64,000 nucleotides of DNA. Origin: Aporrectodea caliginosa. Lineage: Eukaryota; Annelida; Clitellata; Crassiclitellata; Lumbricidae. Below the pieces are notes generated by a model. It searched no databases. It saw nothing but the letters and a program-made list of their open reading frames with translations, and was not told the origin of the DNA. The position numbers were made by a program, and so were the translations under genes. This document shows positions 9,387 through 64,000 of the stretch, piece after piece. The stretch covers positions 248,001-312,000 of the forward strand of contig JACEVL010000271.1 of the NCBI GenBank assembly GCA_020284085.1. Reading direction: 5' to 3'. Position 1 is the stretch's first letter; every line of letters starts with the position of its first letter.

Positions 9387-9430
9387 CCTATATTAATTGA
9401 CTTTATACATACAAAGACATACATGCATAC

Positions 9431-11940: not shown

Positions 11941-12015
11941 CTTATTCTCTAAGTATAAAAATCTATAACACTTTCGGTTTCACAATTGACATTACTGCGC
12001 TATTTTTAATGTGTA

Positions 12016-14763: not shown

Positions 14764-14771
14764 AGGAGCAC

Positions 14772-38075: not shown

Positions 38076-39786
38076 TTTACAATTTTAGTCATCATACAGT
38101 AAAAAGGATGTAAGTTTCGCTCAGTCTAGTGAGCAAAAAGGTTGATGAAGACTGCTGCTTAGCATTAAAAGATTAAATGTCTACTAAACATGCTCCTTCA
38201 CATGGTAAAGCTGCCAGATCTGAAAAAATTCATACGTCTATTATTCTCTAATTTGAACTATAACTAGCAATATGCGAAAAACGCCACGCGTTTGAGGTGT
38301 ACAGACATTTCTAGTGAGCAAAAAGGGCTGATGAAGAGTGCAACTTAGTATTAAAATTTATATGTCTGTCAAGCATGTAATGAAAGAGGACGAGCCGTCT
38401 TTCAAAAATGCAAAGTCAGCTAAGCTTCTCCATCTATAGTGATATTTTTACTGTAAAGACGGATGCTAAATTCACTTTAAGCGATGAATATGTGAGCAGT
38501 TGCAAGCCAAGAGCTCTGTGCAAGTGTAAAAGGGCATAATGCAAATGAATATTCAATGGGCTTGCCGCTTTGGTCACCCTTGTTATACGAGGCAACCCCA
38601 AAGAATGTCTTGCTGCCTAAGAGTAAAAGGTTTTAGCTCTAATTCAATGCAAGCGCACAAAACCATCGCAATTTGTACCTACTGAATAATAAATTGGTCT
38701 TAGTCAGCCTTGAAAAACAAGGCGAGCTCAAAGAATAGCGGCCTAAATGTAAAATGCGTTTCTGCCTCAAAAGAGGCTGCAAGTACTAAATATTCAACGC
38801 TAAATGGTCAGGCAAGAGCTGTAATGGCATGCCAGCGCAAACACTGGCTGCCTTGGCTTCCACACTAAGTGCTTGCGCGCCTTGGTGGGTGACGAAGATG
38901 GAGTTGCAAGGTTTGTAGTTGTAGGCTTGAGCCTAAAATGTGTGCGTGCCTAAGAGAAAATGGTTGTATGGTCCAAAAGAATTGAATGCTTGCGTGTAAT
39001 GGCCTCTACCATTAAAGTTGACCTAAGTGTAAATTGCTATACGCCAAACAAAGCACATGTAAAAGAATGCAAGTGCAGCTACGAGAGCAAAGCCTAGCCG
39101 TGTTGGACTCCAAGCTTAAATGTGAGCTATGTGAAAATGGCCAAAACAAAGGCAGCTTGATTGTAGTATGAAAAGTTGCAAAAATGGGCGCCTTGCAATG
39201 CTTGAGCAAAGATGGATGATGAGTATGGGCGGTAGATGACGGCTAGTGAGTAAAAATTGAGTGCTACATGCAAGAATTGGTAGCTTGCTTGTATAAAAAT
39301 TGGCTGCACGCATATGTGTGTGAAAGGCCCAAATAGAATGCACAGCGTGCAAATAATGAATATTCAATGAGCTTTGCTAAGGCGTGCAGAGTGAAAGAAG
39401 AATGGAGGGGAGGGGTAGGCACACGTACGCCCCCTCTAAGAAGGGCAACCATTGAAAAGACCTTTGCGCAGCTTTAATGGCTGTCTGTTTTGCCTGAGGC
39501 GGTCGTTTGACCTTTGACCTGTACTTGGACTAGATTATTCTTATACCGGCATTGCAAAATTAAGCCAGTAATTGTAGTATGAAAATAAGCCAGTAATTGT
39601 AGTATGAAATTAAGCCAGCATTTGCATATTGATAACTAGTAACTCTAGTGTCTCAGTATCGCTCTCGCGGTCATTTCTTGACTTTTTTGAAACTGTCTTG
39701 AAGCGAAAGTCTTGTTCTTTTCTAGAAGCGGTCTCAATAGTTCTTGCACAAACTGTCTTTAGTTCTGAACTTCTTGCACTAAACAA

Positions 39787-40047
39787 TTGCCCTGTGCCGA
39801 TGTAATAACTAATAAGACGGAGGTGCTAACCACACCGGAAGTTTGGAAAGCAGTCTTTCTTGTTAACACTAGCTTAACAGATATTGCTACTTTACGTCGA
39901 TTTCTATCCGGACAAAATCATAAAATGTCTCATGAAGAACCTGAAATAGACAAATTTGCATTCAAGCAATTTAAAGTCATGAATAAACAAAAGAAATGGT
40001 GTGCCATTTGCCGCTGGTGTAAAGCTACCATACGCGAAACGATTTAA
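39787..40047 (+). CDS. Unknown 86-codon open frame, copied in R2 and D
   Basis: Encodes Ser-His-Glu-Glu-Pro-Glu-Ile-Asp-Lys-Phe-Ala-Phe and a C-terminal Cys-Ala-Ile-Cys-Arg-Trp-Cys. The start used is not a typical ATG context and an ATG lies within. The R2 copy (60069-60329) is identical in length. The D copy (63009-63269) has an extra A near 63070 that breaks the frame. I do not recognise it. It occupies the place upstream of exon 2 where exon 1 would be expected, but it has no RING or B-box. It may be a transposon or chance frame. Confidence 0.35.
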   Translation: MPCADVITNKTEVLTTPEVWKAVFLVNTSLTDIATLRRFLSGQNHKMSHEEPEIDKFAFKQFKVMNKQKKWCAICRWCKATIRETI

Positions 40048-40523
40048 ACAAATCTAGTCGTCTCTCAACCTGTATGGCCTGAATCGCTTAGAAGATCTTA
40101 GAATGCCTGAAATATTTAATTTCTTTATACTATTCAGGTGATCGGCCTACAATTGAGACAACAATTGTTTTGGTGATTTGGGTCCAAGTTGTTTTTATTG
40201 TTTATTCTGTAAAGTGCCACCCTGTGGACTAAATGCCGAAAAGCGTGAGTGACTCGGTTTTGAACTGTCTTGGACCTTGTATCTCGGTCTAGGTCTAGTT
40301 CCCCACTGTCTCGGTCTCGGTCTCCAAATTTTATGTCTCGCATACAAGACTGATTAGAATTTACGTTGACAGTAGACAATTATCGCAGAAGTCGATGTTT
40401 TATAAATCATCATATTTACAATTGCAATTACAATTTTAGCTCTCTGATAAGTGCGTGTGTCACAGTAGTCGGGAAAATAAACGAATATTAACTTTTCTAT
40501 AAACATTTGTCACTTTTATTCAG

Positions 40524-41278
40524 ATGAAGGTGACCCGAAGCCACAGAAAAGAAGTAAACAAAGTCTATTAGGAGAAAAAACTAACGAAAATGATCTCCTG
40601 AGAATGGAAATCGAAATGGAAAGGACTGAGAAAGAGAGTTTGCTGTTTGCAAATGAACAGCTGAGAATTAATGCATTCAAGGAAGTACAGGTTAATAAGA
40701 CTTTGAAAGAAGAACTGAGTAATGCGGAAGCTAATATAGTAAGACTAAAACAAGAGTTGGGCAAAAATAAAATCGCAAACAACGCGCTTCAGACCAACAA
40801 CGACAAACTAAAGCAGGAACTCAATGCAGAAAAACGACCAACAATTCACTTCAAACCAACAACGACAAACTAAAGCAGGAACTTAAAGCAGAGAAAACGA
40901 CCAACAATTCACTTCAAACCAACAATGACAAACTAAAGCAGGAAGTTAAAGCAGAGAAAATGACCAACAATTCACTTCAGGCCAACAACGACAAACTAAA
41001 GCAGGAACTTAAAACAGAGAAAACGACCAACAATTCACTTCAAACCAACAACGACAAATTAAAGCAGGAACTTGATACAGAGAAAACGACCAACAATTTA
41101 CTTCAAACCAACAATTACAAATTAAAGCAGGAACTTAAAGCAGAGCAAACGACCAACAATTCACGTCAGACCAACAATCGCAAATTAGTTGAAGAATTGA
41201 ACACATATAAAGCGACAGTGACGACATTAGAAGCCAACGTCCAGAAACTCAGGAAAGAACTAGAGACAACGAAAACAG
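40524..41278 (+). pseudogene. Unit 4 exon 2 with expanded 63-bp heptad repeats
   Basis: Acceptor CTTTTATTCAG, donor GTATGC. After the acidic-basic start and heptads shared with other units come about seven 63-bp repeats, each encoding 21 residues (three heptads) of the type Asn-Asn-Ser-Leu-Gln-Thr-Asn-Asn-Asp-Lys-Leu-Lys-Gln-Glu-Leu. Units 1 and 2 have two. A frameshift near 40830 breaks the first repeat, and later repeats read in another frame (open from 40960 to 41322). At 21 residues per unit the coiled-coil phase is kept. Confidence 0.85.
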
Positions 41279-41411
41279 GTATGCGTGTATGTCTTTGCAT
41301 CTGTATGTATGAAGACAATTAATATAATATAGCGCAGTTTTAAAGGGTCCACCAAGGTCCTGCAAACTATTCTGATCTTCTCTACGCTTTCAATAACGTC
41401 AAGAAACAAAA

Positions 41412-41490
41412 TTCATTCATTCCAAACATTCCAAACATTTATATAACGCCCGTTCAAGATTCCAACTCAGAGGCGCTCCTTGCGTCATTC
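41412..41490 (-). mobile_element. LINE/SINE tail module
   Basis: On the minus strand it reads GAGCGCCTCTGAGTTGG, CTTGAACGGGCGTTATATAA and (GAAT)n, the same 3' module as the SINEs and the LINE at 16466. Inverted copy at 58560-58640. Confidence 0.7.
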
Positions 41491-41535
41491 TAAATAATGT
41501 TAGAGTCAATTTGGCCAGTAAGTCGAATACAGCTC

Positions 41536-41738
<203 letters not shown>

Positions 41739-42058
41739 GATGCGGGAAGATATACCGCTACCTACTGCTCTTCCCGCCAGTGATGTTACCACTTCACGAT
41801 AGACCCCCCCCAGATGAGTAGGAGAGTCAGCACTGGCAAGGACCCGCAAAAATAACGACTTCTCAATAAATTTATGGATGTCACGATCGGATGTAAGTCG
41901 ACGAGGTGTTGACTTGTAATCAAGAGGGTAAATTTAGTCTCAGTCACTTGGGCTGGTGTGTTGTTTTTCTGATCTAAAATGCTTTATTAACTAAAGTTTG
42001 TGATTCACATTCAATTTGAATATAAAATTGACATGCATGATTGCTGCTCTTGTCATAG

Positions 42059-42172
42059 ATAACAAAGAGAAGATTTTGAGCATCGAACACAAACATGAAC
42101 AACAGCAAAAAGCATGGATGGAAGAAAACGAACAACTTTGTAAACAAATTAAAGAAAGGCGTCGATTAAAAG
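42059..42172 (+). CDS. Unit 4 exon 3: short heptad exon
   Basis: 38 codons, acceptor TTGTCATAG, donor GTAGAAG, phase 1 at both ends. Same length as exon 3 elsewhere. Gln-Leu-Cys-Lys-Gln-Ile-Lys-Glu-Arg-Arg replaces Gln-Leu-Ser-Lys-Gln-Ile-Gln-Glu-Lys-Arg. Open, in a gene that is otherwise broken. Confidence 0.78.
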
Positions 42173-42246
42173 GTAGAAGACTAATTACTCATCTAACAAT
42201 AAAGGTTGAATATTTGTCTAAGAGCCGGTTGTCTGCAGATTTTGAT

Positions 42247-43838
42247 GGTGACCCGTCAGAACGGCCCAGGACAAATCGGCCCCGACAAAGCGGCCCCGAC
42301 AAAACGACCCCCGTCAAAATGGCCTCGACAAAACAGTCCAGTCAAATCGGCCCCCGTGAAATCGCCCCCCGTCATATCGGCCCCCGTCATATCGGCCCCA
42401 GTCATATCGGTCCCAGTCATATCGGCCCCATACAAAATATCCAATGTTGCCAGTACTTTTAAGCTTACGCTGACAAACTATGTTGAAATGAGCCCCCCGT
42501 CATATCGGCCCCCGTCATATCGGCCCCAGTCATATCGGCCCCAGTCATAGCCTATCGGCCCCATACAAAATATCCAATGTTGCCAGTACTTTTAAGCTTA
42601 CGCTGACAAACTATGTTGAAATGAGGCCTCAAGCGACTTTTCAGCTGGGCAATGGACTGCGGGGACCATCGGCTAATGCTAACTGGTTGGCGTATTTAAT
42701 TATTTAAATGCTTTCAATGACAACTATCATAGAGCCAACTTCTATTTACGCAACGAATTATCTTATATTATAATTCTTAGTCTGTTTACGATGTCCTTCC
42801 GTATGTATGTATGTATGTTTGGTTGTCCGGCTAAAGGCTCCGAAACGGAACGGTTTCGCGATTTGAAAAAATTTACAAAACATTATTACGCAACGTCTAA
42901 TTCAACGCGACTATTTTCAGCTAGCAATTTTATTTAAACGCCGATATATGGACATTTTAAATTTACAACTGTTTCGGCGAGGCTATCTTATAATACTGGC
43001 TATAGCATGCCCATTTGTCCACGTCACTAAATATGCAATATTAAATTACGTCACGCGGCTAAATATGCAATCTTACGTCACGCTGGCTAACGGAAAATAA
43101 AAAGCGTATTATAATTTAGAAATAACCCGTGTAGTACGGGGAACAAATAATATGCCTATTTCAGGTAGAGATAACCCGTGTAGTACGGGGAACAAATAAT
43201 ATTGCCTATAATTATAAGGTAGAGATAACCCGTGCAGTACACGGGCAAAGCAACTATGTTCACCTCTAAATATCGTTTCCATTCAGATATATGGACATTT
43301 TTTTAAATATTTGAAGCCCATCAGCAAATATAGTAAGTAAGTAGCCTTTATTTGCAGCCGTTAAAAATTACGCCTGGGGAAAACCCGGGCGAACGCCGGG
43401 TAAAAAATGCTAGTTTTTCATAAATCCAACTTCCATTTTAAACTGACCACATAAGTAATTTGGCAACGTAAACTACGATTTTACCAATTCGAGTTCTATT
43501 TACGCAAAGAATTCTTTTCATCAAACCAACTTAAAAGTATTTGGAACATGAGATATTTTGTGATGGGCCGATGTGACTGGGGTCGATATGACTGTGGCCG
43601 GTTTGACGGGGGCAGATATGACGGTGGTCGATATGACGGGTCACGGGGGTCGTTATGACAGAGGCCGAAATGACGGGGCTGTTTTGTTGAGGCCATTTTG
43701 ACGAGGGCCGTTTTGACGGGGCCGTTTTGTCGGGGCCGTTTTGTCGGGGCCCATTTGTCGGGGCCGTTTTGTCGGGGCCCATTTGTCGGGGCCGTTTTGT
43801 CGGGGCCGATTTGTCCTGGGCCGTTCTGACGGGGTACC
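42247..43838. mobile_element. 1.6-kb element with 17-bp-repeat arms and 9-bp target duplication
   Basis: Ends GGTGACCCGTCAGAACGG and CCGTTCTGACGGGGTACC. Perfect 9-bp duplication GATTTTGAT (42238-42246, 43839-43847). Both arms are tandem runs of units such as GGCCCCGACAAAACGGC and GGCCCCAGTCATATCG (left 42247-42440 and a second block 42490-42560; right 43562-43838 inverted). The interior has TCATCAATCC-type minisatellite units (43425-43530) and a Helitron-like insert. Unit 1 shows a near-identical empty site around 6940-6955. No transposase is seen. Confidence 0.88.
42761..43413 (+). mobile_element. Helitron-like insert
   Basis: Starts TCTTATATTATAATTC and ends with hairpin CCCGGGCGAACGCCGGG then TAAAAAATGCTAG, inserted between A (42760) and T (43414) without duplication. 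Removing it restores a complete ATCCAACTTC-type minisatellite unit of the host element. The interior has three copies of a repeat of about 50 bp with AACCCGTGTAGTACGGGG (43125-43240) and a (TATG)n tract. No Rep/helicase is present, so it is non-autonomous. Confidence 0.75.
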
Positions 43839-44267
43839 GATTTTGATAGCTGCACTTTCTCAGATAATTATTTTTAATCCGACATTTGCAACAAAACACT
43901 TAACATTTTCTAATTGCGCATTTAAACAAATTGTGGATTCCAAGAGTTTAGCGACAGCGACTTCTTACGGCAGAAAAGACATTCCATGGCACCTTATGTC
44001 ATCTTAAGGCATCTTTTAACATCTTAAGGAATCTTGAGACATCGAAATAAAAATGTCTTGTAACCCTCATTGCAGGTGAAGAATTACTAGTAGGCTACAT
44101 TACAATTTTCTGACTAGGTTTATCTGTACTGAGCGCCGGTCATTCGATTCAAGTTTAGAAACAAAATGCACCGATGCTAAAAAAATAGTTGACATTAGGT
44201 AGCATCGGGTTCAGCGTTGAAATGCATATAGACTATAATTGTTTATGAGGAATCGAAATATATTCAT

Positions 44268-44270
44268 TTC

Positions 44271-44361
<91 letters not shown>

Positions 44362-44362
44362 G

Positions 44363-44401
<39 letters not shown>

Positions 44402-44412
44402 TCATCATCATC
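44268..44412 (+). repeat. (ATC)n microsatellite, about 145 bp
   Basis: TCA/ATC trinucleotides with a few interruptions, in the intron before exon 4 of unit 4. R2 counterpart (TGA)n at 55638-55777 with different interruptions. The following 44413-44745 is an insert absent from units 1 and 2, with CATGGGCCGA near 44419 and 44460. I could not classify it. Confidence 0.92.
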
Positions 44413-45085
44413 AGGATCCATGGGCCGAAGGCCCGTAGGTGTCCAAAGCTTGCATCGGATCCATGGGCCGAGGCCCGTCCAATGCTTGCATTGGATTTCA
44501 TACGTATTTTTCTTTACGAACGGAGTATCTACACCCATCCGTTCGACCTTCGCACTTCTCCCTTAAAGAGAGTTCCAGGCTTAGGACTGGCTTTGATATC
44601 CACTATCTTGTGGTATCAGAGGCGGCGATGCCGCCCACGTTTGCCAGCTTTTTCAGAGTTTCTGCTGAGCCTGTCCACCTCGCTCGCGTAGCGCCCTAGG
44701 TGGTACTTCAGCCAAGACCTTCACCACTGATGGCAGCAATTCACTTTCGAGGACACGGCTTTTCATACTCTATTGATAAATCTACACTTCATGCACCTCA
44801 TATTTCTTACTCTATCTTTACCTTTCCCTTTCCTGTGCGACTGTCTATGTTCATCCGCCCGTGCCTGTTTGTCACTCTACTTTTCACTGACCATTTCTGC
44901 GCCTGTATCATTCTGTTGGCCTCAATTTGTCTCGGTCTTGATATCGTCCACGTATTATCATTACGTTCATCGTCGTTGCCGCATGCATTAGTACTCACGT
45001 TCCAATTTATATTTGTTTACAATTATGCAATAGTCCCAAATCCAAATATTAAATAGAGTTTTAATGGATCTATTTCTACTTTCAG

Positions 45086-45947
45086 ACGAACTTCGATACA
45101 AATCGGATCCAGTTTTAGTGAAGACGATCAGAACAAAAGCTGAGGAAAAAGACACGAAACAAATTCGGGGATTGACGATCTTAGACAAAGAATTGTTTGT
45201 TTTGAGTGAAAGGAATTCAGATGTTGAAGTTTACAATAAACGTAAATTAAACTTCAAACGTCGATGGAATTTGAAGGAATTAATTGATCCACTCGACATA
45301 GGATCCTGCGACAGAAATAAATGTCTCTACATCATCGATTACAAAAGGCCGTTTAAGTTTCACGAATGCAATCTTCAGAGTTGATCCAAATGGAAATTTA
45401 ATAAAGAAATGGTCAACAGGAGAAGATTATGGATGGGGTCTATCTGTTACAGGCGAATCGAATGTCATCTTAGCTGTTTTTTAAATATAAGTTAAACGAA
45501 TATTCGCCAGATGGACAATTGCTCCGTGAAATCAATCTATTGTCAGACGCTGGTATTCGTCGTCCATGGCATGCCATTAAACTGGCCAATGGTCATTTCA
45601 TGGTCAGTCATGGTGATGGTGGTCTGGATAGAGTTTGCATAGTGGATGTAGATGGAAAACTTAAAAAGTCATTCGGTGGAAAACACGGATCTACCATTGG
45701 ACAAATGAATCATCCAGTTCATTTGTCCGTCGATGGAAATGGATTCGTGATGGTCGTTGATAAGTCAAACCATCGAATTCTTTTACTGGATCAAGATTTG
45801 GAATTTAGGAGAGAAATTCTCTCAAAAGATGGAAAACACGGACTACAATATCCATCGAGGATTCTTCTGGATGAGAAAAAAGGTCGATTCTTTGTGGCTA
45901 ACAACGATCCGAGCAAGCGACGGATTTTGATTTTCAATTTTAAATAA
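45086..45947 (+). pseudogene. Unit 4 exon 4: NHL domain with two frameshifts
   Basis: Acceptor TTTCTACTTTCAG, phase 1. Compared with unit 1 and R2, two bases are missing near 45370, and another 2-bp loss near 45482 shifts the frame after Val-Ile-Leu-Ala-Val-Phe. From 45519 the frame is again open for 142 codons and encodes good NHL blades (Val-Asp-Lys-Ser-Asn-His-Arg-Ile-Leu). The 45482 lesion is shared by R2, so it predates the inverted duplication. The 45370 lesion is only in L. Confidence 0.85.
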
Positions 45948-46146
45948 TTCGGTGCTTAAGACAATAACTTAAGAGAATTACATCTTTAAATTTAAAATTA
46001 AGGTAAATTTGCATTTGTGTTTATGATCTTCATTTGCTAATACTTGTTTTCTTATGCAACCACCAAAATTTATTAAAATTATTGTCTTTTCACTTCTACT
46101 TGAGCAGAGAATTATTTTCATCAATCTTCCATTTTAAATTGAACAT

Positions 46147-46227
46147 ATAAATCAAATCAAATCAATCATTTATTTTGCAACCAGACAATCACTTTACAAT
46201 TGCAGATTTGCAAAATACACATAAAGA
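46147..46227 (-). mobile_element. Short LINE 3' tail, (GATTT)n
   Basis: On the minus strand it reads GATTGTCTGGTTGCAAAATA, a TAAATGATTGATTTG run and (GATTT)n, like a CR1 3' end. Copies in R1 (about 50993-51045) and R2 (about 53840-53898) differ in tail repeat number. Confidence 0.5.
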
Positions 46228-47084
46228 AGTTGGATAAATTTTGGTGTCTGGTAAAAAAGAATTACCCAATTTCTTGTTAATACATTAAAGTAAATCGTTC
46301 TGTTTCTGATATTTAGGCCTACAGGACGCTTTTTCTTAGGATATGAGCCTTTAAAGATTCTGGTGAAGTTGTCCAACTACTGATTATTAGATTTTAAACG
46401 GAGTCAAGTGTTTCTCTTTTCCAACATGTTTAGATTAAAAAAAACTTATTATGAAGATTAATTAATTTATTATTTTGATTCTATGTAAATTCTATATTGT
46501 GTCAAAGAATATTTCTACCATCGACTGATGTTTTGATTATTATTACAGTGGCTCTGTAAGTTCTTAGACAAGAAGCTGAAAGGCATCGTTGTTGCTTGAC
46601 GACGCTGTGGCATGACGAACATGATCAGCGTCTTCTTCCTCTTATCTATATCAAGAATTGGTTCTAGGACAGTTCCGAAGCGCAATTGCAGAGTTGAAGT
46701 TAATAGGCGATGTTATCAGGAATATTGTATTAAGTTTCTCAGATATAGAACGTTAATAACACTACTATGCATGATTTCTGATGTTCGGTCCAAAACATAT
46801 TTTTCTAAAAGATTTTAGTCTGCTGATTTCGAAAATGATATCCGTTTTTATGTATGACGTAGGGTTTTCCTGACAATCACCATTATCATATTCAACATGG
46901 CTGAATCTGTAAGCGGTTACTTTAGAAGACGTTGTGTTAATTCACCTGCAGGGTAAAAATTGCCGCGGGTTGGGGGGGGTCAACACCCCTAGTCTTTCTT
47001 AGGCTCCCATAGTAAAGTCTACATTTCACACCCAAACTGCACATAAATCAACGTCTAACCCCCAGTTATTTTTTACAATTCCCA

Positions 47085-47950
47085 TACTGTTCACCTGATT
47101 CATTTTGTTACATCTGTGGAAGCCAAACTTTGCATAAACCAAGACAGAACAGAACCGGGTTTTTGCAGAAAGCTTATTTTGGTATGAAGTTAGGAGACCA
47201 AGACAAATCATGGGCGCCTCACGTCGTATGCAAGACATGTGTGACACGTCTAAGAAACTGGAGCAAAGGTGTAAAGAAATCACTAAGCTTTGGAGTTGCT
47301 ATGGTCTGGTGCTAGTCTAGAAATCATGTTGATGACTGCTACTTTGTTTGGTAAATACTAAAGGCTACAATAACAAGAATAAAAAGGAAATTTCTTATCC
47401 AAATTTGCCATCGGCCTAGAGTCCGGTACCCCATGCTGGTTGCAGCCTTCCTGTTCAAGTACCAAAGGATATTGCGGACTGTATGACAGAAAGTGAGTCG
47501 AGTTCAGAAAGTGATGATGACACTGGTACAGACAACTATGTTTCAGACAATCCAGATATTGCTGAAACTTTCTCTCTGGCAGAGCTAAATGATCTCATTC
47601 GAGACTTAGACCTGCCAAAATTTTCGGCAGAACTTCTGGGATCACGCTTGAGAGCCAAGAATTTGCTGGCACCTAGCACGCCATTCTCGTGGTACAGAAA
47701 CCGTGAAGAATTTACATGCTATTTCTCAGAGATTGAATCTCTTGTATTTTGCTAAGATATTCCTGGATAAATAACAAAGTTGGGAGTCACTTACAATGCA
47801 AGTGAATGGAGAATTTTCATCGATTCTTCCAAGCGAAGCCTAAAAGCAGTTCTCTTGCATAATGGTAAGAGATATGCATCAGTGCCTGTTGGGCATTCTG
47901 TGCAGCTGAAAGAGACTTATGAAAACATGGCCATGCTTCTTCAGAATATA
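47085..47950 (+). pseudogene. Decayed multicopy-type Cys-rich protein
   Basis: Blocks in shifting frames. First come Phe-Cys-Tyr-Ile-Cys-Gly-like residues near 47100. Next is Lys-Leu-Gly-Asp-Gln-Asp-Lys-Ser-Trp-Ala-Pro-His-Val-Val-Cys-Lys-Thr-Cys (47189-47240), then Asp-Asp-Cys-Tyr-Phe near 47335. An acidic Ser-rich segment (47483) follows, then Phe-Ser-Leu-Ala-Glu-Leu-Asn-Asp-Leu-Ile-Arg-Asp-Leu, and finally Trp-Arg-Ile-Phe-Ile-Asp-Ser-Ser-Lys-Arg-Ser-Leu-Lys. I recognise this order from a repeated, mostly unnamed invertebrate protein type, probably transposon-borne. Stops at 47313 and 47755 break it. It lies 3' of unit 4 in L, with inverted copies in R1 and R2. Confidence 0.6.
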
Positions 47951-47952
47951 AA

Positions 47953-48329
47953 CAGAGCTTCTCATTTGAAAATAGAAGGCGATTGGAAAATCGATCGCGC
48001 CGGATTGCGTAGGCGATCGGTGCGCGATCGACCTCGAGAGCTTTTGTGTACGTCGTATTTTGTGTATCGTATTCGTATAGCTGTATATTATAGCCTATTT
48101 TATAGTACGTATACCATTGACGCAAAATGACGTGTGACGGCTAATTTAACAACGTTGGTTGAGCCTTCGGCATACGTTGAGCAATCAGTTTTGGCTTGAC
48201 CTTTCAGTCGGCAGTCCAGTCGAGTTTTGTCGGCGTGCTTTCTGCAGGACTTGCAGTACATTTTTTTCACAATCCGACGGTTTTCTTTCTCGACTAGCCT
48301 ACATCCACATCGAACGAGTCACCTAATTT
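47953..48329 (+). mobile_element. Truncated copy of the hAT-type element
   Basis: Begins CAGAGCTTCTCATTTG and follows 32556 onward but without the 507-bp insert, giving the empty target site at 48042-48051. Homology stops near 48329 without a right end. Confidence 0.8.
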
Positions 48330-49032
48330 GTAAATATGTACTTATGTTGCTGCTATTTAAGAAGTTTATATTTTTATACACTCTTATAGTTAAATTATTT
48401 TACAGGGTTTAAGTTTTTATTCTTACCAAGGTGGCCTATACCTTCACTAGCATAAATAGACGTACTAGAGATGTCGATAATATTACAGAGATGTAGTGAT
48501 ATTGGTGATGTTATTGACTACGTTTGTTTATAGTGCTTGATACCTACTAGAGATGTGTGTATGCATAGGGACATTTGTGACCGATGCTTTTAGCTGCTTT
48601 AATTAACCTAATAATTTACTTATATAACAAAGATTTGTACTCACCTAAAACGCTGCATGTTTAAAGTAATATATTATGCATCCATGCTATATGAATTTAA
48701 AGATGCCACTATATTGTTTTATCGGTTTGTGATTGATTTTGTGATGCTGAACTGTGTCTGTTGCCGCCCATATAAAATGGCACCGATAGTGACGATTTAC
48801 AACTGCAGTTGAAATGGATATTTTATTCTTCCGACATCTAGCTACTAAATTTTAAATACATCTGCTGAACATCAACACTGACCTTTTAAGCTTTATACAC
48901 CTAGCGAATGTATTTTTAACACTTTCTAAGTTTTTGTTAAATACTGCTGAACTCTGCCACTGAAGTGTAATCTTATATAGTATCTTATTCATAGGGGCTA
49001 TGCTTCTTTAGTTGTAATATTACAACTATAAT
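48160..49032. other. Spacer between arm L and inverted copy R1
   Basis: 873 bp. The first part continues arm L up to 48392 and is shared with R2. From 48393 to 49032 I see no gene and no repeat elsewhere in the window. Confidence 0.7.
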
Positions 49033-49246
49033 ACCAACGTTGTTAAATTAGCCGTCACACGTCATTTTGCGTCAATGGTATACGTACTATAAAATAGGCT
49101 ATAATATACAGCTATACGAATACGATACACAAAATACGACGTACACAAAAGCTCTCGAGGTCGATCGCGCACCGATCGCCTACGCAATCCGGCGCGATCG
49201 ATTTTCCAATCGCCTTCTATTTTCAAATGAGAAGCTCTGTTTATAT

Positions 49247-51600: not shown

Positions 51601-52086
51601 ATGGACCATTGGCCAAAAAATTTAAAAATTTGGGGAAAAGCCCAAAAGGTAACTATAAGAGTGTATAAAAATATAAACTTCTTAAATAGCAGCAACATAA
51701 GTACATATTTACAAATTAGGTGACTCGTTCGATGTGGATGTAGGCTAGTCGAGAAAGAAAACCGTCGGATTGTGAAAAAAATGTACTGCAAGTCCTGCAG
51801 AAAGCACGCCGACAAAACTCGACTGGACTGCCGACTGAAAGGTCAAGCCAAAACTGATTGCTCAACGTATGCCGAAGGCTCAACCAACGTTGTTAAATTA
51901 GTCGTCACACGTCATTTTGCGTCAATGGTATACGTACTATAAAATAGGCTATAATATACAGCTATACGAATACGATACACAAAATACGACGTACACAAAA
52001 GCTCTCGAGGTCGATCGCGCACCGATCGCCTACGCAATCCAGCGCGATCGATTTTCCAACCAGCCATTGATGTTCATTGTATTTTA

Positions 52087-52955
52087 TATATATTCTGAAG
52101 AAGCATAGCCATGTCTTCATAAGTCTCTTTCAGCTGCACAGAATGCCCAACAGGCACTGATGCATATCTCTTACCATTATGCAAGAGAACTGCTTTTAGG
52201 CTTCGCTTGGAAGAATCGATGAAAATTCTCCATTCACTTGCATTGTAAGTGACTCCCAACTTTGTTATTTATCCAGGAATATCTTAGCAAAATACAAGAG
52301 ATTCAATCTCTGAGAAATAGCATGTAAATTCTTCACGGTTTCTGTACCACGAGAATGGCGTGCTAGGTGCCAGCAAATTCTTGGCTCTCAAGCGTGATCC
52401 CAGAAGTTCTGCCGAAAATTTTGGCAGGTCTAAGTCTCGAATGAGATCATTTAGCTCTGCCAGAGAGAAAGTTTCAGCAATATCTGGATTGTCTGAAACA
52501 TAGTTGTCTGTACCAGTGTCATCATCACTTTCTGAACTCGACTCACTTTCTGTCATACAGTCCGCAATATCCTTTGGTACTTGAACAGGAAGGCTGCAAC
52601 CAGCATGGGGTACCGGACTCTAGGCCGATGGCAAATTTGGATAAGAAATTTCCTTTTTATTCTTGTTATTGTAGCCTTTAGTATTTACCAAACAAAGTAG
52701 CAGTCATCAACATGATTTCTAGACTAGCACCAGACCATAGCAACTCCAAAGCTTAGTGATTTCTTTACACCTTTGCTCCAGTTTCTTAGACCTGTCACAC
52801 ATGTCTTGCATACGACGTGAGGCGCCCATGATTTGTCTTGGTCTCCTAACTTCATACCAAAATAAGCTTTCTGCAAAAACCCGGTTCTGTTCTGTCTTGG
52901 TTTATGCAAAGTTTGGCTTCCACAGATGTAACAAAATGAATCAGGTGAACAGTAT
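52087..52955 (-). pseudogene. Decayed Cys-rich protein, R2 copy
   Basis: Third copy of the 47085-47950 block with a few substitutions and the same stops. Confidence 0.65.
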
Positions 52956-54100
52956 GGGAATTGTAAAAAATAACTGGGGGGTTAGACGTTGATTTAGGTG
53001 CAGTTTGGGTGTGAAATGTAGACTTTACTATGGAGCCTAAGAAAGACTAGGGGTGTTGACTCCCCCCAACCCGCGGCAATTTTTACCCTGCAGGTGAATT
53101 AACACAACGTCTTCTAAAGTAACCGCTTACACATTCAGCCATGTTGAATATGATAATGGTGATTGTCAGGAAAACCCTACGTCATACCAAAAAACGGATA
53201 TCATTTTCGAAATCAGCAGACTAAAATCCTTTAGAAAAATATGTTTTGGACCGAACATCAGAAATAATGCATAGTAGTGTTATTAACGTTCTATATCTGA
53301 GAAACTTAATACAATATTCCTGATAACATCGCCTATTAACTTCAACTCTGCAACTGCGCTTCGGAACTGTCCTAGAACCAATTCTTGATATAGATAAGAG
53401 GAAGAAGACGCTGATCATGTTCGTCATGCCACAGCGTCGTCAAGCAACAACGATGCCTTTCAGATTCTTGTCTAAGAACTTACAGAGCCACTGTAATAAT
53501 AATCAAAACATCAGTCGATGGTAGAAATATTCTTTGACACAATATAGAATTTACATAGAATCAAAATAATAAATTAATTAATCTTCATAATAAGTTTTTT
53601 TTAATCTAAACATGTTGGAAAAGAGAAACACTTGACTCCGTTTAAAATCTAATAATCAGTAGTTGGACAACTTCACCAGAATCTTTAAAGGCTCATATCC
53701 TAAGAAAAAGCGTCCTGTAGGCCTAAATATCAGAAACAGAACGATTTACTTTAATGTTTTAACAAGAAATTGGGTAATTCTTTTTTACCAGACACCAAAA
53801 TTTATCCAACTTCTTTATGTGTATTTTGCAACTCTGCAATTGTAAAGTGATTGTCTGGTTGCAAAATAAATGATTGATTTGATTTGATTTGATTTATATG
53901 TTCAATTTAAAATGGAAGTTGGATTGATGAAAATAATTCTCTGCTCAAGTAGAAGTGAAAAGACAATAATTTTAATAAATTTTGGTGGTTGCATAAGAAA
54001 ACAAGTATTAGCAAATGAAGATCATAAACACAAATGCAAATTTACCTTAATTTTAAATTTAAAGATGTAATTCTGTTAAGTTATTGTTTTAAGCACCGAA

Positions 54101-54965
54101 TTATTTAAAATTGAAAATCAAAATCCGTCGCTTGCTCGGATCGTTGTTAGCCACAAAGAATCGACCTTTTTTCTCATCCAGAAGAATCCTCGATGGATAT
54201 TGTAGTCCGTGTTTTCCATCTTTTGAGAGAATTTCTCTCCTAAATTCCAAATATGCATCCAGTAAAAGAATTCGATGGTTTGACTTATCAACGACCATCA
54301 CGAATCCATTTCCATCGACGGACAAATGAACTGGATGATTCATTTGTCCAATGGTAGATCCGTGTTTTCCACCGAATGACTTTTTAAGTTTTCCATCTAC
54401 ACCAACTATGCATACTCTATGCTGATCACGATCACCATGACTGACCACGAAATGACCATTGGTCAGTTTAATGGGCATGCCATGGACGACGAATACCAGC
54501 GTCTGACAATAGATTGATTTCACGGAGCAATTGTCCATCTGGCGAATATTCGTTTAACTTATATTTAAAAAACAGCTAAGATGACATTCGATTCGCCTGT
54601 AACAGATAGACCCCATCCATAATCTTCTCCTGTTGACCATTTCTTTATTAAATTTCCATTTGGATCAACTCTGAAGATTGGGTATTCGTGAAACTTAAAC
54701 GGCCTTTTGTAATCGATGATGTAGAGACATTTATTTCTGTCGCAGGATCCTATGTCTAGTGGATCAATTAATTCCTTCAAATTCCATCGACGTTTGAAGC
54801 TTAATTTACGTTTATTGTAAACTTCAACATCTGAATTCCTTTCACTCAAAACAAACAATTCTTTGTCTAAGATCGTCAATCCCCGAATTTGTTTGGTGTC
54901 TTTTTCCTCAGCTTTTGTTCTGATCGTCTTCACTAAAACTGGATCCGATTTGTATCGAAGTTCGT
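54101..54965 (-). pseudogene. NHL exon 4, R2 copy, frameshifted
   Basis: Acceptor TACTTTCAG, phase 1. It keeps the reading through Phe-His-Glu-Tyr-Pro-Ile-Phe-Arg-Val-Asp that L lost near 45370. It shares the loss after Val-Ile-Leu-Ala-Val-Phe (near 54570). An extra G near 54472 returns the downstream blades to an open frame. Confidence 0.82.
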
Positions 54966-55637
54966 CTGAAAGTAGTAATAGATCCATTAAAACTCTATTT
55001 AATATTTGGATTTGGGACTATTGCATAATTGTAAACAAATATAAATTGGAACGTGAGTACTAATGCATGCGGCAACGACGATGAACGTAATGATAATACG
55101 TGGACGATATTAAGACCGAGACAAATTGAGGCCAACAGAATGATACAGGCGCAGAAATGGTCAGTGAAAAGTAGAGTGACAAACAGGCACGGGCGGATGA
55201 ACATAGACAGTCGCACAGGAAAGGGAAAGGTAAAGATAGAGTAAGAAATATGAGGTGCAGGAAGTGTAGATTTATCATTAGAGTATGAAAAGCCGTGTCC
55301 TCGAAAGTGAATTGCTGCCATCAGTGGTGAAGGTCTTGGCTGAAGTACCACCTAGGGCGCTACGCGAGCGAGGTGGACAGGCTCAGCAGAAACTCTGAAA
55401 AAGCTGGCAAACGTGGGCGGCATCGCCGCCTCTGATACCACAAGATAGTGGATATCAGAGCCAGTCCTAAGCCTGGAACTCTCTTTAAGGGAGAAATGCG
55501 AAGGTCGAACGGATGGGGGTGTAGATACTCCGTTCGTAAAGAAAAATACGTATGAAATCCCAATGCAAGCATTGGACTCTGACGGGCCTCGGCCCATGGA
55601 TCCGATACAAGCTTTGGACGGACCTTCGGCCCATGGA

Positions 55638-55651
55638 TCCTGATGATGATA

Positions 55652-55690
<39 letters not shown>

Positions 55691-55709
55691 CTGATGATGA
55701 TGATGATGC

Positions 55710-55777
<68 letters not shown>
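55638..55777 (-). repeat. (TGA)n microsatellite, R2 copy
   Basis: Inverted counterpart of 44268-44412 with different interruptions (GCTGATG). Confidence 0.92.
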
Positions 55778-55779
<2 letters not shown>

Positions 55780-56211
55780 GAAATGAATATATTTCGATTC
55801 CTCATAAACAATTATAGTCTATATGCATTTCAACGCTGAACCCGATGCTACCTAATGTCAACTATTTTTTTAGCATCGGTGCATTTTGTTTCTAAACTTG
55901 AATCGAATGACCGGCGCTCAGTACAGATAAACCTAGTCAGAAAATTGTAATGTAGCCTACTAGTAATTCTTCACCTGCAATGAGGGTTACAAGACATTTT
56001 TATTTCGATGTCTCAAGATTCCTTAAGATGTTAAAAGATGCCTTAAGATGACATAAGGTGCCATGGAATGTCTTTTCTGCCGTAAGAAGTCGCTGTCGCT
56101 AAACTCTTGGAATCCACAATTTGTTTAAATGCGCAATTAGAAAATGTTAAGTGTTTTGTTGCAAATGTCGGATTAAAAATAATTATCTGAGAAAGTGCAG
56201 CTATCAAAATC

Positions 56212-57802
56212 GGTACCCCGTCAGGACAGCCAGAGCAAATCGGCCCCGACAAAACGGCCCCGACAAATGGGCCCCGACAAAACAACCCCGACAAATGGGC
56301 CCCGGACAAAACGGCCGGCGACAAAACGGCCCCGTCTCAAAACGACCCTCGTCAAAATGGCCTCAACAAAACAGCCCCGTCATTTCGACCTCTGTCATAA
56401 CGACCCCCGTGACCCGTCATATCGACCACCGTCATATCTGCCCCCGTCAAACCGGCCACAGTCATATCGACCCCAGTCATATCGGCCCATCACAAAATAT
56501 CTCATGTTCCAAATACTTTTAAGTTGGTTTGATGAAAAGAATTCTTTTGCTTAAATAAAAGTCGTAGTGGTAAAATCGTAGTTTACGTTGCCAAGTTACT
56601 TATGTGGTCAGTTTAAAATGGATATTGAAAAACTAGCTTTTTACCAGCGTTCGCGGGTTTCCCCAGGCGTAATTTTAACGGCTGCAAATAAAGGCTTCTT
56701 ACTATATTTGCTGATGAGGCTTCAAATATTTAAAAAATGTCCATATATCTGAATGGAAACGATATTTAGAGGTGAACATAGTTGCTTAGCCCGTGTACTG
56801 CACGGGTTATCTCTACCTTATAATTATAGGCAATATTATTTGTTCCCCGTACTACACGGGTTATCTCTACCTGAAATAGGCATATTATTTGTTCCCCGTA
56901 CTACACGGGTTATTTCTAAATTATAATACGCTTTTTATTTTCCGTTAGCCAGCGTGACGTAAGATTGCATAGTTAGCCGCGTGACGTAATTTTAATATTG
57001 CATATTTAGTGACGTGGACAAATGGGCATGCTATAGCCAGTATTATAAGATAGCCTCGCCGAGCCGAAACAGTTGTAAATTTAAAATGTCCATATATCGG
57101 CGTTTAAATAAAATTGCTAGCTGAAAATAGTCGCGTTGAATTAGACGTTGCGTAATAATGTTTTGTAAATTTTTTAAAATCGCGAAACCGTTCCTAGTTT
57201 CGGAGCCTTTAGCCGGACAACTAAACACATACATACATACATACGGAAGGACATCGTAAACAGACTAAGAATTATAATATAAGATAATTCGTTGCGTAAA
57301 TAGAAGTTGTGCTCTATGATAGTTGTCATTGAAAGTATTTAAATAATTAAATACGCCAACCAGTTAGCATTAGACGATGGTCCCCGCAGTCCATTGTCCA
57401 GCTGAACAGTCGCTTGAGGCCTCATTTCCAACATAGTTTGTCAGCGTAAGCTTAAAAGTACTGGCAACATTGGATATTTTGTATGGGGCCGATAGGCTAT
57501 GACTGGGGGCCGATATGACTAAGGGCCGATATGACGGGGGCCGATATGACGGGGGGCTCATTTCAACATAGTTTGTCAGCGTAAGCTTAAAAGTACTGGC
57601 AACATTGGATATTTTGTATGGGGCCGATATGACTGGGACCGATATGACTGGGGCCGATATGACGGGGGCCGATATGACGGGGGGCGATTTCACGGGGGCC
57701 GATTTGACTGGACTGTTTTGTCGAGGCCATTTTGACGGGGGTCGTTTTGTCGGGGCCGCTTTGTCGGGGCCGATTTGTCCTGGGCCGTTCTGACGGGTCA
57801 CC
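56212..57802. mobile_element. R2 copy of the 17-bp-repeat-arm element
   Basis: Inverted counterpart of 42247-43838, with flanking ATCAAAATC at 56203-56211 and 57803-57811. Arm units differ in number and sequence from L (56220-56500 against 43562-43838), so the arms change faster than the surrounding DNA. A second block at 57480-57560 is again present. Confidence 0.85.
56633..57284 (-). mobile_element. R2 copy of the Helitron-like insert
   Basis: Inverted counterpart of 42761-43413. It ends at CTAG (56633-56636) and starts at TC (57283-57284). Confidence 0.72.
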
Positions 57803-57876
57803 ATCAAAATCTGCAGACAACCGGCTCTTAGACAAATATTCAACCTTTATTGTTAGATGAGTAATTAGTCTTCTAC

Positions 57877-57990
57877 CTTTTAATCGACGCCTTTCTTTAA
57901 TTTGTTTACAAAGTTGTTCGTTTTCTTCCATCCATGCTTTTTGCTGTTGTTCATGTTTGTGTTCGATGCTCAAAATCTTCTCTTTGTTAT
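57877..57990 (-). CDS. Short heptad exon 3, R2 copy
   Basis: 114 nt with the same acceptor, donor and phase as 42059-42172. The coding sequence appears unchanged. Confidence 0.75.
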
Positions 57991-58297
57991 CTATGACAAG
58001 AGCAGCAATCATGCATGTCAATTTTATATTCAATTTTATGTGAATCACAAACTTTAGTTAATAGAGCATTTGAGATCAGAAAAACAACACACCAGCCCAA
58101 GTGACTGAGACTAAATTTACCCTCTTGATTACAAGTCAACACCTCGTCGACTTACATCCGATCGTGACATCCATAAATTTATTGAGAAGTCGTTATTTTT
58201 GCGGGTCCTTGCCAGTGCTGACTCTCCTACTCATCTGGGGGGGTCTATCGTGAAGTGGTAACATCCCCACTGGCTTGATCGGTAGGGAAGCTTGCAT

Positions 58298-58519
<222 letters not shown>

Positions 58520-58777
58520 ATTGCTGTATCAAACTGACTGGCCAAATTGACTCTAACATTATTTAGAATGACGCAAGGAGCGCCTCTGAGTTGGAATCTT
58601 GAACGGGCGTTATATAAATGTTTGGAATGTTTGGAATGAATGAATTTTGTTTCTTGACGTTATTGAAAGCGTAGAGAAGATCAGAATAGTTTGCAGGACC
58701 TTGGTGGACCCTTTAAAACTGCGCTATATTAAAATAATTGTCTTCATACATACAGGTGCAAAGACATACACGCATAC

Positions 58778-59532
58778 CTGTTTTCGTTGTCTCTAGTTCT
58801 TTCCTGAGTTTCTGGACGTTGGCTTCTAATGTCGTCACTGTCGCTTTATATGTGTTCAATTCTTCAACTAATTTGCGATTGTTGGTCTGACGTGAATTGT
58901 TGGTCGTTTGCTCTGCTTTAAGTTCCTGCTTTAATTTGTAATTGTTGGTTTGAAGTAAATTGTTGGTCGTTTTCTCTGTATCAAGTTCCTGCTTTAATTT
59001 GTCGTTGTTGGTTTGAAGTGAATTGTTGGTCGTTTTCTCTGTTTTAAGTTCCTGCTTTAGTTTGTCGTTGTTGGCCTGAAGTGAATTGTTGGTCATTTTC
59101 TCTGCTTTAACTTCCTGCTTTAGTTTGTCATTGTTGGTTTGAAGTGAATTGTTGGTCGTTTTCTCTGCTTTAAGTTCCTGCTTTAGTTTGTCGTTGTTGG
59201 TTTGAAGTGAATTGTTGGTCGTTTTTCTGCATTGAGTTCCTGCTTTAGTTTGTCGTTGTTGGTCTGAAGCGCGTTGTTTGCGATTTTATTTTTGCCCAAC
59301 TCTTGTTTTAGTCTTACTATATTAGCTTCCGCATTTCTCTGTTCTTCTTTCAAAGTCTTATTAACCTGTACTTCCTTAGCTGCATTAATTCTCAGCTGTT
59401 CATTTGCTAACTGCAAACTTTCTTTCTCTGTTCTTTCCATTTCGATTTCCATTCTCAGGAGATCATTTTCTTTAGTTTTTTCTACTAATAGACTTTGTTT
59501 ACTTCTTTTCTTTGGCTTCAGGTCACCATCAT
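58778..59532 (-). pseudogene. Heptad exon 2, R2 copy
   Basis: Same length (755 nt), splice sites, repeat number and frameshift as L, but with substitutions in the first third, such as Leu-Gln-Leu-Ala-Asn-Glu for Leu-Leu-Phe-Ala-Asn-Glu. In those positions it is closer to unit 1 than L is. Confidence 0.82.
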
Positions 59533-60068
59533 CTGAATAAAAGTGACAACATGTTTATAGTAGAGTTAATATTCGTTTAATTTTCCGACTACTGTGACAC
59601 ACTTACAAACGTATCAGAGAGCTGTTATTGTAACTGTTACTGTAAATATGACAATATATATAAAATCATCGGTAACAAGTTACTTCTCGGTGCGATAATT
59701 GTCTACTCTCAACGTAAATTCTAATCAGTCTTGTATGCGAGACATAAAACTTCGAGACCGAGACAGTGTAGACCGAGATCGAGATCAAGGCAGTTGGGAA
59801 CGAGACCTATAGACCGAGACACGAGGTCCAAGACAGTTCAACACTGAGGTGTTTAGGCATTTAGTCCACAGGGTAACACAGATAACAGAATAAACAATAA
59901 AAACCACTTGGATCCAAATCCAGAAACAATTGTTCTCTCAACTGTTGTCTACTACTAGGAGCAAGTCACTGAAGTCACCTGAATAGTATAAAGAAATTAA
60001 ATATTTCAGGCATTCTAAGATCTTCTAAGCGATTCAGGCCATACAGGTTGAGAGACGACTAGATTTGT

Positions 60069-60329
60069 TTAAATCGTTTCGCGTATGGTAGCTTTACACC
60101 AGCGGCAAATGGCACACCATTTCTTTTGTTTATTCATGACTTTAAATTGCTTGAATGCAAATTTGTCTATTTCAGGTTCTTCATGAGACATTTTATGATT
60201 TTGTCCGGATAGAAATCGACGTAAAGTAGCAATATCTGTTAAGCTAGTGTTAACAAGAAAGACTGCTTTCCAAACTTCCGGTGTGGTTAGCACCTCCGTC
60301 TTATTAGTTATTACATCGGCACAGGGCAA
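60069..60329 (-). CDS. Unknown 86-codon open frame, R2 copy
   Basis: Inverted identical-length copy of 39787-40047. Same comments apply. Confidence 0.3.
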   Translation of the reverse strand: MPCADVITNKTEVLTTPEVWKAVFLVNTSLTDIATLRRFLSGQNHKMSHEEPEIDKFAFKQFKVMNKQKKWCAICRWCKATIRETI

Positions 60330-61378
60330 TTTTTTAGCGCAAGAAGTTCAGAACTAAAGAGAGTTTGTGCAAGAACTATTGAGACCGCTTCTAGAAAAGA
60401 ACAAGACTTTCGCTTCAAGACAGTTTCAAAAAAGTCAAGAAATGACCGCGAGAGCGATACTGAGACACTAGAGTTACTAGTTATCAATATGCAAATGCTG
60501 GCTTAATTTCATACTACAATTACTGGCTTATTTTCATACTACAATTACTGGCTTAATTTTGCAATGCCGGTATAAGAATAATCTAGTCCAAGTACAGGTC
60601 AAAGGTCAAACGACCGCCTCAGGCAAAACAGACAGCCATTAAAGCTGCGCAAAGGTCTTTTCAATGGTTGCCCTTCTTAGAGGGGGCGTACGTGTGCCTA
60701 CCCCTCCCCTCCATTCTTCTTTCACTCTGCACGCCTTAGCAAAGCTCATTGAATATTCATTATTTGCACGCTGTGCATTCTATTTGGGCCTTTCACACGC
60801 ATATGCGTGCAGCCAATTTTTATACAAGCAAGATACCAATTCTTGCATGTAGCACTCAATTTTTACTCACTAGCCGTCATCTACCGCCCATACTCATCAT
60901 CCATCTTTGCTCATGCATTGCCAAGGCGCCCATTTTTGCATCTTTTCATACTACAATCAAGCTGCCATTGTTTTGGCCATTTTCACATAGCTCACATTTA
61001 AGCTTGGAGTCCAACACGGCTAGGCTTTGCTCTCGTAGCTGCACTTGCATTCTTTTACATGTGCATTGTTTGGCATATAGCAATTTACACTTAGGTCAAC
61101 TTTAATGGTAGAGGCCATTACACGCAAGCATTCAATTATTTTGGACCATACAACCATTTTCTCTTAGGCACGCACACATTTTTAGGCTCAAGCCTACAAC
61201 TACAAACCTTGCAACTCCATCTTCGTCACCCAGCAAGGCGCGCAAGCACTTAGTGTGGAAGCCAAGGCAACCAGTGTTTGCGCTGGCATGCCATTACAGC
61301 TCTTGCCTGACCATTTAGCGTTGAATATTTAGTACTTGCAGCCTCTTTTGAGGCAGAAACGCATTTTACATTTAAGCG

Positions 61379-64000
61379 TAGCATTAAAAGATTAAATGTC
61401 TACTAAACATGCTCCTTCACATGGTAAAGCTGCCAGATCGGAAAAAATTCATACGTCTATTATTCTCTAATTTGAACTATAACTAGCAATATGCGAAAAA
61501 CGCCACGCGTTTGAGGTGTACAGACATTTCTAGTGAGCAAAAAGGGCTGATGAAGAGTGCAACTTAGTATTAAAATTTATATGTCTGTCAAGCAAGTAAT
61601 GAAAGAGGACGAGCCGTCTTTCAAAAATGCAAAGTCAGCTAAGCTTCTCCGTCTATAGTGATATTTTTAGTGTAAAGACGGATGCTAAATTCACTTTAAG
61701 CGATGAATGTGTGAGCAGTTGCAAGCCAAGAGCTCTGTGCAAGTGTAAAAGGGCATAAGGCAAATGAATATTCAATGGGCTTGCCGCTTTGGTCACCCTT
61801 GTAAAACGAGGCAAGCCCAAAGAATGTCTTGCTGCCTAAGAGTAAAAGGTTTTAGCTCTAATTCAATGCAAGCGCACAAAACCATCGCAATTTGTACCTA
61901 CTGAATAATAAATTGGTCTTAGTCAGCCTTGAAAAACAAGGCGAGCTCAAAGAATAGCCGCTTAAATGTAAAATGCGTTTCTGCCTCAAAAGAGGCTGCA
62001 AGTACTAAATATTCAACGCTAAAATGGTCAGGCAAGAGCTGTAATGGCATGCAAGCGCAAACACTGGTTGCCTTGGCTTCCACACTAAGTGCTTGCGCGC
62101 CTTGCTGGGTGACGAAGATGGAGTTGCAAGGTTTGTAGTTGTAGGCTTGAGCCTAAAATGTGTGCGTGCCTAAGAGAAAATGGTTGTATGGTCCAAAATA
62201 ATTGAATGCTTGCGTGTAATGGCCTCTACCATTAAAGTTGACCTAAGTGTAAATTGCTATATGCCAAACAATGCACATGTAAAAGAATGCAAGTGCAGCT
62301 ACGAGAGCAAAGCCTAGCCGTGTTGGACTCCAAGCTTAAATGTGAGCTATGTGAAAATGGCCAAAACAATGGCAGCTTGATTGTAGTATGAAAAGATGCA
62401 AAAATGGGCGCCTTGCAATGCATGAGCAAAGATGGATGATGAGTATGGGCGGTAGATGACGGCTAGTGAGTAAAAATTGAGTGCTACATGCAAGAATTGG
62501 TATCTTGCTTGTATAAAAATTGGCTGCACGCATATGCGTGTGAAAGGCCCAAATAGAATGCACAGCGTGCAAATAATGAATATTCAATGAGCTTTGCTAA
62601 GGCGTGCAGAGTGAAAGAAGAATGGAGGGGAGGGGTAGGCACACGTACGCCCCCTCTAAGAAGGGCAACCATTGAAAAGACCTTTGCGCAGCTTTAATGG
62701 CTGTCTGTTTTGCCTGAGGCGGTCGTTTGACCTTTGACCTGTACTTGGACTAGATTATTCTTATACCGGCATTGCAAAATTAAGCCAGTAATTGTAGTAT
62801 GAAAATAAGCCAGTAATTGTAGTATGAAATTAAGCCAGCATTTGCATATTGATAACTAGTAACTCTAGTGTCTCAGTATCGCTCTCGCGGTCATTTCTTG
62901 ACTTTTTTGAAACTGTCTTGAAGCGAAAGTCTTGTTCTTTTCTAGAAGCGGTCTCAATAGTTCTTGCACAAACTCTCTTTAGTTCTGAACTTCTTGCGCT
63001 AAAAAATTGCCCTGTGCCGATGTAATAACTAATAAGACGGAGGTGCTAACCACACCGGAAGTTTGGAAAAGCAGTCTTTCTTGTTAACACTAGCTTAACA
63101 GATATTGCTACTTTACGTCGATTTCTATCCGGACAAAATCATAAAATGTCTCATGAAGAACCTGAAATAGACAAATTTGCATTCAAGCAATTTAAAGTCA
63201 TGAATAAACAAAAGAAATGGTGTGCCATTTGCCGCTGGTGTAAAGCTACCATACGCGAAACGATTTAAACAAATCTAGTCGTCTCTCAACCTGTATGGCC
63301 TGAATCGCTTAGAAGATCTTAGAATGCCTGAAATATTTAATTTCTTTATACTATTCAGGTGATCGGCCTACAATTGAGACAACAATTGTTTTGGTGATTT
63401 GGGTCCAAGTTGTTTTTATTGTTTATTCTGTAATCAGTGCCACCCTGTGGACTAAATGCCGAAAAGCGTGAGTGACTCGGTTTTGAACTGTCTTGGACCT
63501 TGTATCTCGGTCTAGGTCTAGTTCCCCACTGTCTCGGTCTCGGTCTCCAAATTTTATGTCTCGCATACAAGACTGATTAGAATTTACGTTGACAGTAGAC
63601 AATTATCGCAGAAGTCGATGTTTTATAAATCATCATATTTACAATTGCAATTACAATTTTAGCTCTCTGATAAGTGCGTGTGTCACAGTAGTCGGGAAAA
63701 TAAACGAATATTAACTTTTCTATAAACATTTGTCACTTTTATTCAGATGAAGGTGACCCGAAGCCACAGAAAAGAAGTAAACAAAGTCTATTAGGAGAAA
63801 AAACTAACGAAAATGATCTCCTGAGAATGGAAATCGAAATGGAAAGGACTGAGAAAGAGAGTTTGCTGTTTGCAAATGAACAGCTGAGAATTAATGCATT
63901 CAAGGAAGTACAGGTTAATAAGACTTTGAAAGAAGAACTGAGTAATGCGGAAGCTAATATAGTAAGACTAAAACAAGAGTTGGGCAAAAATAAAATCGCA
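61379..64000 (+). repeat. Direct copy D of the start of arm L
   Basis: Matches 38160-40780 in direct orientation and runs off the window. With R2 it forms a second palindrome with a spacer of about 590 bp (61378-61964). D agrees with R2 against L up to about 63010, then with L against R2 from about 63360. Confidence 0.9.
63747..64000 (+). pseudogene. Heptad exon 2, D copy (partial)
   Basis: The acceptor CTTTTATTCAG ends at 63746 and the exon runs to the window edge. It appears identical to the start of 40524-41278. Whether it carries the frameshift cannot be seen because the window ends first. Confidence 0.75.

Follow-up and report, generated by a model that had tools for sequence, protein, structure and literature searches.

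Introduction

Inverted duplications have been described both as rearrangements of genomes and as products of sequencing and assembly. Among the former, DUP-TRP/INV-DUP (duplication, inverted triplication, duplication) structures place copies in direct, inverted, direct order, and origin-dependent inverted-repeat amplification (ODIRA) is defined by short inverted repeats that lie 40-80 bases from one another at the turns, a spacing that later rearrangement may lengthen (PMC10766186). Triplications of ~150 bases, far smaller than the block considered below, are also on record (PMC13334657). Among the latter, chimeras formed by multiple displacement amplification (MDA) joined segments less than 10 kb apart in 337 of 406 inverted cases, and at least two complementary bases at the junction are usual, although not universal (PMC1855051). 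Fold-back long-read artefacts have been recognised by a turn onto the opposite strand within 200 bases, although the same paper shows one read with ~2 kb between its arms (PMC12870357). Artefacts with multiple inversions are documented in amplified long-read data (PMC13265396), as are artificial inverted duplications in an assembly (PMC6218980), and at real inverted duplicates the second arm of nanopore data can be of low quality and shortened (PMC7229812). Here we analyse a 64,000-base stretch of contig JACEVL010000271.1 of the annelid Aporrectodea caliginosa, referred to as the window and numbered from its own first base, in which a block of about 10 kb with an NHL-like part recurs in both orientations.

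The window displays four such blocks, named L, R1, R2 and D, together with a mosaic of two sequence versions, a join made of stretched letter runs and a surplus of one-base homopolymer indels. It is probable, in our view, that in the segment from 49033 to 64000 a single diploid locus has been assembled into a chimera. Haplotype a would then be represented by L and R1, R2 would be haplotype b reversed, and D would begin on haplotype b and change to a inside a tract where the two agree, with the joins arising from inverted (fold-back) chimeric molecules or reads combined with misjoins by the assembler. The lean towards assembly error follows from the stretched join, the single switch within D and the indel surplus.

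Geometry of the four blocks

Self-comparison of the window by blastn recovers the four blocks (Table 1) close to where the sequence-only reading of this DNA had placed an alternating ~10-kb unit, and the spacers that it gave as 873 bp and about 590 bp measure 873 and ~583 bases; the observed block geometry is confirmed. L and R2, which are inverted relative to one another, are 96.4% identical by blastn and 97.6% identical across 9604 aligned bases, with 230 mismatches and 45 gaps. This difference of 2.39% is very unevenly distributed, since intervals between differences reach 677, 580 and 516 bases while the lowest 400-base windows show 90.0% identity. The remaining pairs, by blastn, are L 45583-48159 with R1 51615-49033 (inverted, 99.5%), L 38157-40777 with D 61376-64000 (direct, 98.9%), R2 59279-61378 with D 64000-61959 (inverted, 93.8%) and R1 49033-51612 with R2 51883-54462 (direct, 97.5%). 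Chance is no explanation for these matches, given bit scores of 3105-15950 across the five pairs.

Table 1. Coordinates of the blocks, spacers and junction elements within the window
Feature	Position	Strand	Basis
L (block common to R2); whole L in brackets	38744-48392 (38157-48392)	+	self-comparison, alignment
s (left end of L; its copy is the R2/D spacer)	38157-38743	+	alignment
L/R1 spacer, 873 bases	48160-49032	+	self-comparison
Perfect 20-base palindrome, 4 bases ahead of the L/R1 turn	49009-49028	.	palindrome scan
R1 (inverted copy of the end of L, 45564-48159 including the garbled end)	49033-51574, to 51649 garbled	-	
Garbled R1 end (L 45564-45617 with lengthened runs)	51575-51649	-	run comparison
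R2 (inverted copy of L 38744-48392)	51650-61374	-	self-comparison, alignment
Copy of s, R2/D spacer	61376-61958	+	self-comparison, alignment
D arm, first part, R2-type	61959-63004	+	informative sites
D arm, second part, L-type; leaves the window	63363-64000	+	informative sites

D is a direct copy of L from 38157 onwards, visible over its first 2.6 kb, and the copy of s with which it opens differs from the original by 10-11 mismatches in 583-584 aligned bases. Aligned as an arm against D, R2 extends to 61378. The first 233 bases of the longer spacer recur in R2, and no second full copy of its last 640 bases was found within the window. R1 matches L with 6 mismatches and no internal gap in 2538 aligned bases (49033-51570) and then continues to 51649 in garbled form, so that there is no separate filler ahead of R2. 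Both ends of R2 are cut where L is continuous. In addition, a 59-base unit at 38125-38182 spans the left boundary of L and is repeated at 85% identity inside s; because this unit is intact in the context of L and cut by the R2/D join, the arrangement in L seems to be the original one and the R2/D join a derived one.

Comparisons can be made with each of the systems outlined above. As in MDA inverted chimeras and palindromic long reads, orientation alternates in a structure with multiple inversions, and at both turns the segments joined in inverted orientation lie less than 10 kb apart. Unlike those products, the window has little shared sequence at its two turns, its arms represent two versions that have diverged and not a single molecule, and the R1/R2 join is direct rather than inverted. 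The direct, inverted, direct order, with D seen over the part within the window, and the duplicated left flank s are those of DUP-TRP/INV-DUP and ODIRA structures, whose right-hand flank copy would fall beyond base 64000, outside the window. The locus departs from them in its extra partial inverted copy, in its diverged copies (a recent event would leave L and R2 nearly identical) and in spacers well above the 40-80 bases of ODIRA.

A real duplication, inverted triplication and duplication is the main alternative origin, although an unlikely one. In that case L and D would be direct copies and R2 the inverted middle copy, conversion would have homogenised R2 and D near their shared centre and L and D further out, and only R1 and the R1/R2 join would be poorly sequenced or misjoined. 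The + - + order with s duplicated corresponds to the published order, and junction homology in table rows of the same source, with one instance of 47, is otherwise 0-4 bases for the most part, a range into which the turns here also fall (PMC10766186). However, given the divergence of L and R2, one recent event would be insufficient unless conversion or both homologues were involved, R1 lies outside a simple three-copy order, and the R1/R2 join is garbled. Of the two explanations between which the sequence-only reading did not choose, an amplicon of palindromic or breakage-fusion type and an error of assembly, internal evidence favours the second. A breakage-fusion-bridge amplicon shares with the locus its fold-back geometry and short spacers, beyond which it finds no specific support; the diverged L/R2 arms and the mosaic composition of D speak against it, and we regard this origin as extremely unlikely.

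A mosaic of two versions

Where L and R2 differ, D follows first one and then the other. Across L 38848-39784 it carries the R2 letter at 13/13 informative sites, and across L 40142-40720 the L letter at 68/68, the change occurring within ~358 bases where the copies agree. One further site, in the first part of the arm, is private to D. At 49 variable ungapped sites, a count that omits the 38 bases adjoining the R1/R2 join, R1 shows the L letter 43 times, the R2 letter twice and a letter of its own four times. With one switch in D and an L-like R1, two versions, a and b, explain nearly everything. These versions are probably alleles, and the joins between them are probably absent from the organism.

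False duplication of haplotypes is a known class of assembly artefact. The locus resembles it in holding two versions that differ by ~2.4% and change over where their sequence is identical, and differs in that the second version is inverted, so that chimeric joins are needed as well.

Comparison of the copies also bears on the triplication alternative. The arms of R2 and D are near-identical beside the spacer (1 substitution in 1239 bases), as conversion between arms would produce, and three versions exist at a few sites, one private to D and four to R1. Gene-converting palindromes with near-identical arms occur on sex chromosomes, and the likeness to these is confined to the centre, since near-identity between R2 and D stops within 1.0-1.4 kb of it. 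A more elaborate proposal, which we consider very improbable, is a real inverted triplication formed by template switching between both homologues, with copies a, b reversed, and b changing to a. Such a structure would sit inside an expanding TRIM-NHL-like family and be kept alike by gene conversion from arm to arm.

A garbled join and a surplus of homopolymer indels

The 75 letters of the garbled R1 end represent 54 letters of L on the reverse strand. The 40 native runs comprise 35 that persist in their order and 5 that are lost, with none gained and none mismatched; 13 run lengths are increased, 22 are equal and none is shortened. For the last 37 letters, an equally good match occurred at 3 of 5000 random window places when length was fixed; an earlier and laxer test, in which length could vary between 12 and 24, gave matches as good at 25 of 3000 random places and in 31 of 2000 run shuffles. 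The spot has the highest mean run length among all 60-base windows, and its share of letters in runs of at least 3 is matched by just 5 of 63963 37-base windows, all of which start at 51611-51615.

Unpolished long-read letters can show stretched runs of this kind, and the R1/R2 join looks like raw, low-quality long-read letters that were retained, which would give it an origin in reads. Letters left unaligned between the arms of fold-back and chimeric reads were enriched in homopolymers and in simple or short repeats (PMC12870357). Compared with the failure of nanopore data at real inverted duplicates, R1 has a clean interior and a lengthened end, and this is seen on the assembly rather than on reads.

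Serial template switching in the organism could conceivably have made every join, that of R1 included. All of the joins lie inside one 10-kb template, and a perfect 20-base palindrome stands four bases ahead of the first turn. However, no mutational process known to us lengthens letter runs while keeping their order, as seen at 51575-51649, and we give this alternative little credence. Besides this palindrome, the window has three perfect gapless ones of at least 18 bases, all of them AT-rich repeats. The 20-base palindrome could mark a hairpin, whether in the organism or in the library.

The second line of evidence at the level of single letters comes from counts of one-base homopolymer indels relative to mismatches in each aligned pair, for which six pairs outside the block served as controls. 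The ratio is 17:230 for L/R2 and 4:1 for R2/D (1239 aligned bases), as against 9:770 in the controls (Fisher p=7e-6 and p=2e-7, respectively); for the L/D arm it is 2:14. Outside tandem arrays, L/R2 retains 11:205, which differs from the six controls together at p=0.001 and from three of them, selected by us for their higher noncoding content, at p=0.03. One-base homopolymer indels were also counted in five other pairs involving L or R2, which did not serve as controls, and number 0, 0, 1, 1 and 0. The longer gaps of R2/D and L/R1 sit at the ends of aligned pieces. These counts support, without proving, the view that few or noisy reads underlie R2 and D. One of the control pairs is itself inverted (14065-14673 and 16980-17596), with ~90% identity by blastn, and is more diverged than the block.

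Weighing the assembly chimera

Several observations weigh against the chimera that we favour. It requires three rare joins within ~13 kb. The L/R1 turn shows by eye no shared base on its visible side, and at the R2/D turn just two letters, 61376-61377, fit both sides, the next fitting R2 alone; complementary bases were present at the junction in 93.5% of the inverted amplification chimeras that span less than 10 kb (PMC1855051). Both spacers exceed the 200-base limit of fold-back reads. The L/R1 pair has no indel surplus (0:6 over 2538 bases), and because the interior of R1 is free of one-base homopolymer indels relative to L while carrying four letters of its own, R1 is not a plain raw read; this clean interior, like the length of the spacers, speaks against a simple artefact of reads. 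Insertions between L and R2 are not significantly one-sided, either overall (12 in R2 and 5 in L, p=0.14) or outside tandem arrays (7 and 4, p=0.55). A search for adapter remnants at the joins gave no score that set them apart from 200 background places. Finally, the L-type half of D is not an exact copy of L, from which it departs by one 2-base difference (alignment columns 1499-1500) with the R2 letters.

Two simpler artefacts were rejected. R2 is not entirely a raw read, since its differences from L are mostly mismatches, and the blocks do not stem from passes in both directions over a single molecule whose adapters were missed, since L and R2 have diverged to the extent given above.

Gene content and surrounding sequence

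RING/B-box and NHL-like parts are present in the units at ~1-12 kb and at 23-29 kb; the block analysed here combines an NHL part with a coiled-coil-like one. No tblastn match to the RING/B-box open reading frame (ORF) of unit 2 lies within 38-64 kb, and in both L and R2 the NHL part is split over three frames. The block does not look like an intact TRIM-NHL gene, although the sequence-only reading labels it "TRIM-NHL unit 4". One break in the NHL frame falls at query residues 141-142 in L and in R2 alike.

Used as protein queries, two TRIM-NHL-like ORFs, from units 1 and 2, and a transposase-like ORF returned 97, 120 and 27 matches; the best organism-named match by E-value, in the search with 97, is a brittle-star protein with 28% identity. 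None of the 217 proteins matching the TRIM-NHL-like ORFs of units 1 and 2 is listed as closer than 72.7% to unit 4, in a comparison that took its queries from those units rather than from unit 4 and left out the 27 transposase relatives. For the RING/B-box protein of unit 2, the sole protein tried there, relatives were confirmed in 0 of 3 matching stretches of viral contigs and 0 of 19 matching stretches of genome contigs. Rfam gave no match at gathering scores, ARAGORN with the bacterial code found no tRNA, and a literature search on TRIM-NHL expansions returned general bivalve papers only.

Tandem arrays are present within and beside the blocks. A long TAA/ATT array lies at 41536-41737 in L and 58300-58516 in R2 (100% over 202 and 95% over 217 bases), and C/G-rich arrays of 14-15-base units (CCCGTCAAATCGGC and the reverse kind) face one another inside each block at 42252-43843 and 56236-57797. 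Directly to the left of L, at 37563-38072, is an array of 18-base TCTCTGCTTCTCAGCATC-like units, around which GC skew is strong (-0.30 at 36001-38000). Elsewhere in the window, bases 1-187 and 18148-18334 are identical direct copies of 187 bases, cut by the window start and possibly extending leftward. A weak reverse transcriptase match at 29865-30392 scores 28.7 bits relative to a Pfam cut-off of 29.6. The transposase-like ORF at 2922-3518 has no Pfam match of its own, and several of its 27 relatives carry PF13358.

Implications

Were the structure real, it would represent a naturally occurring inverted triplication that is also a mosaic of haplotypes. Should the joins be artefacts, as we think probable, the garbled 75-base join would serve as a marker of such an error, detectable without reads, and copy counts of this gene family would be inflated in this assembly.

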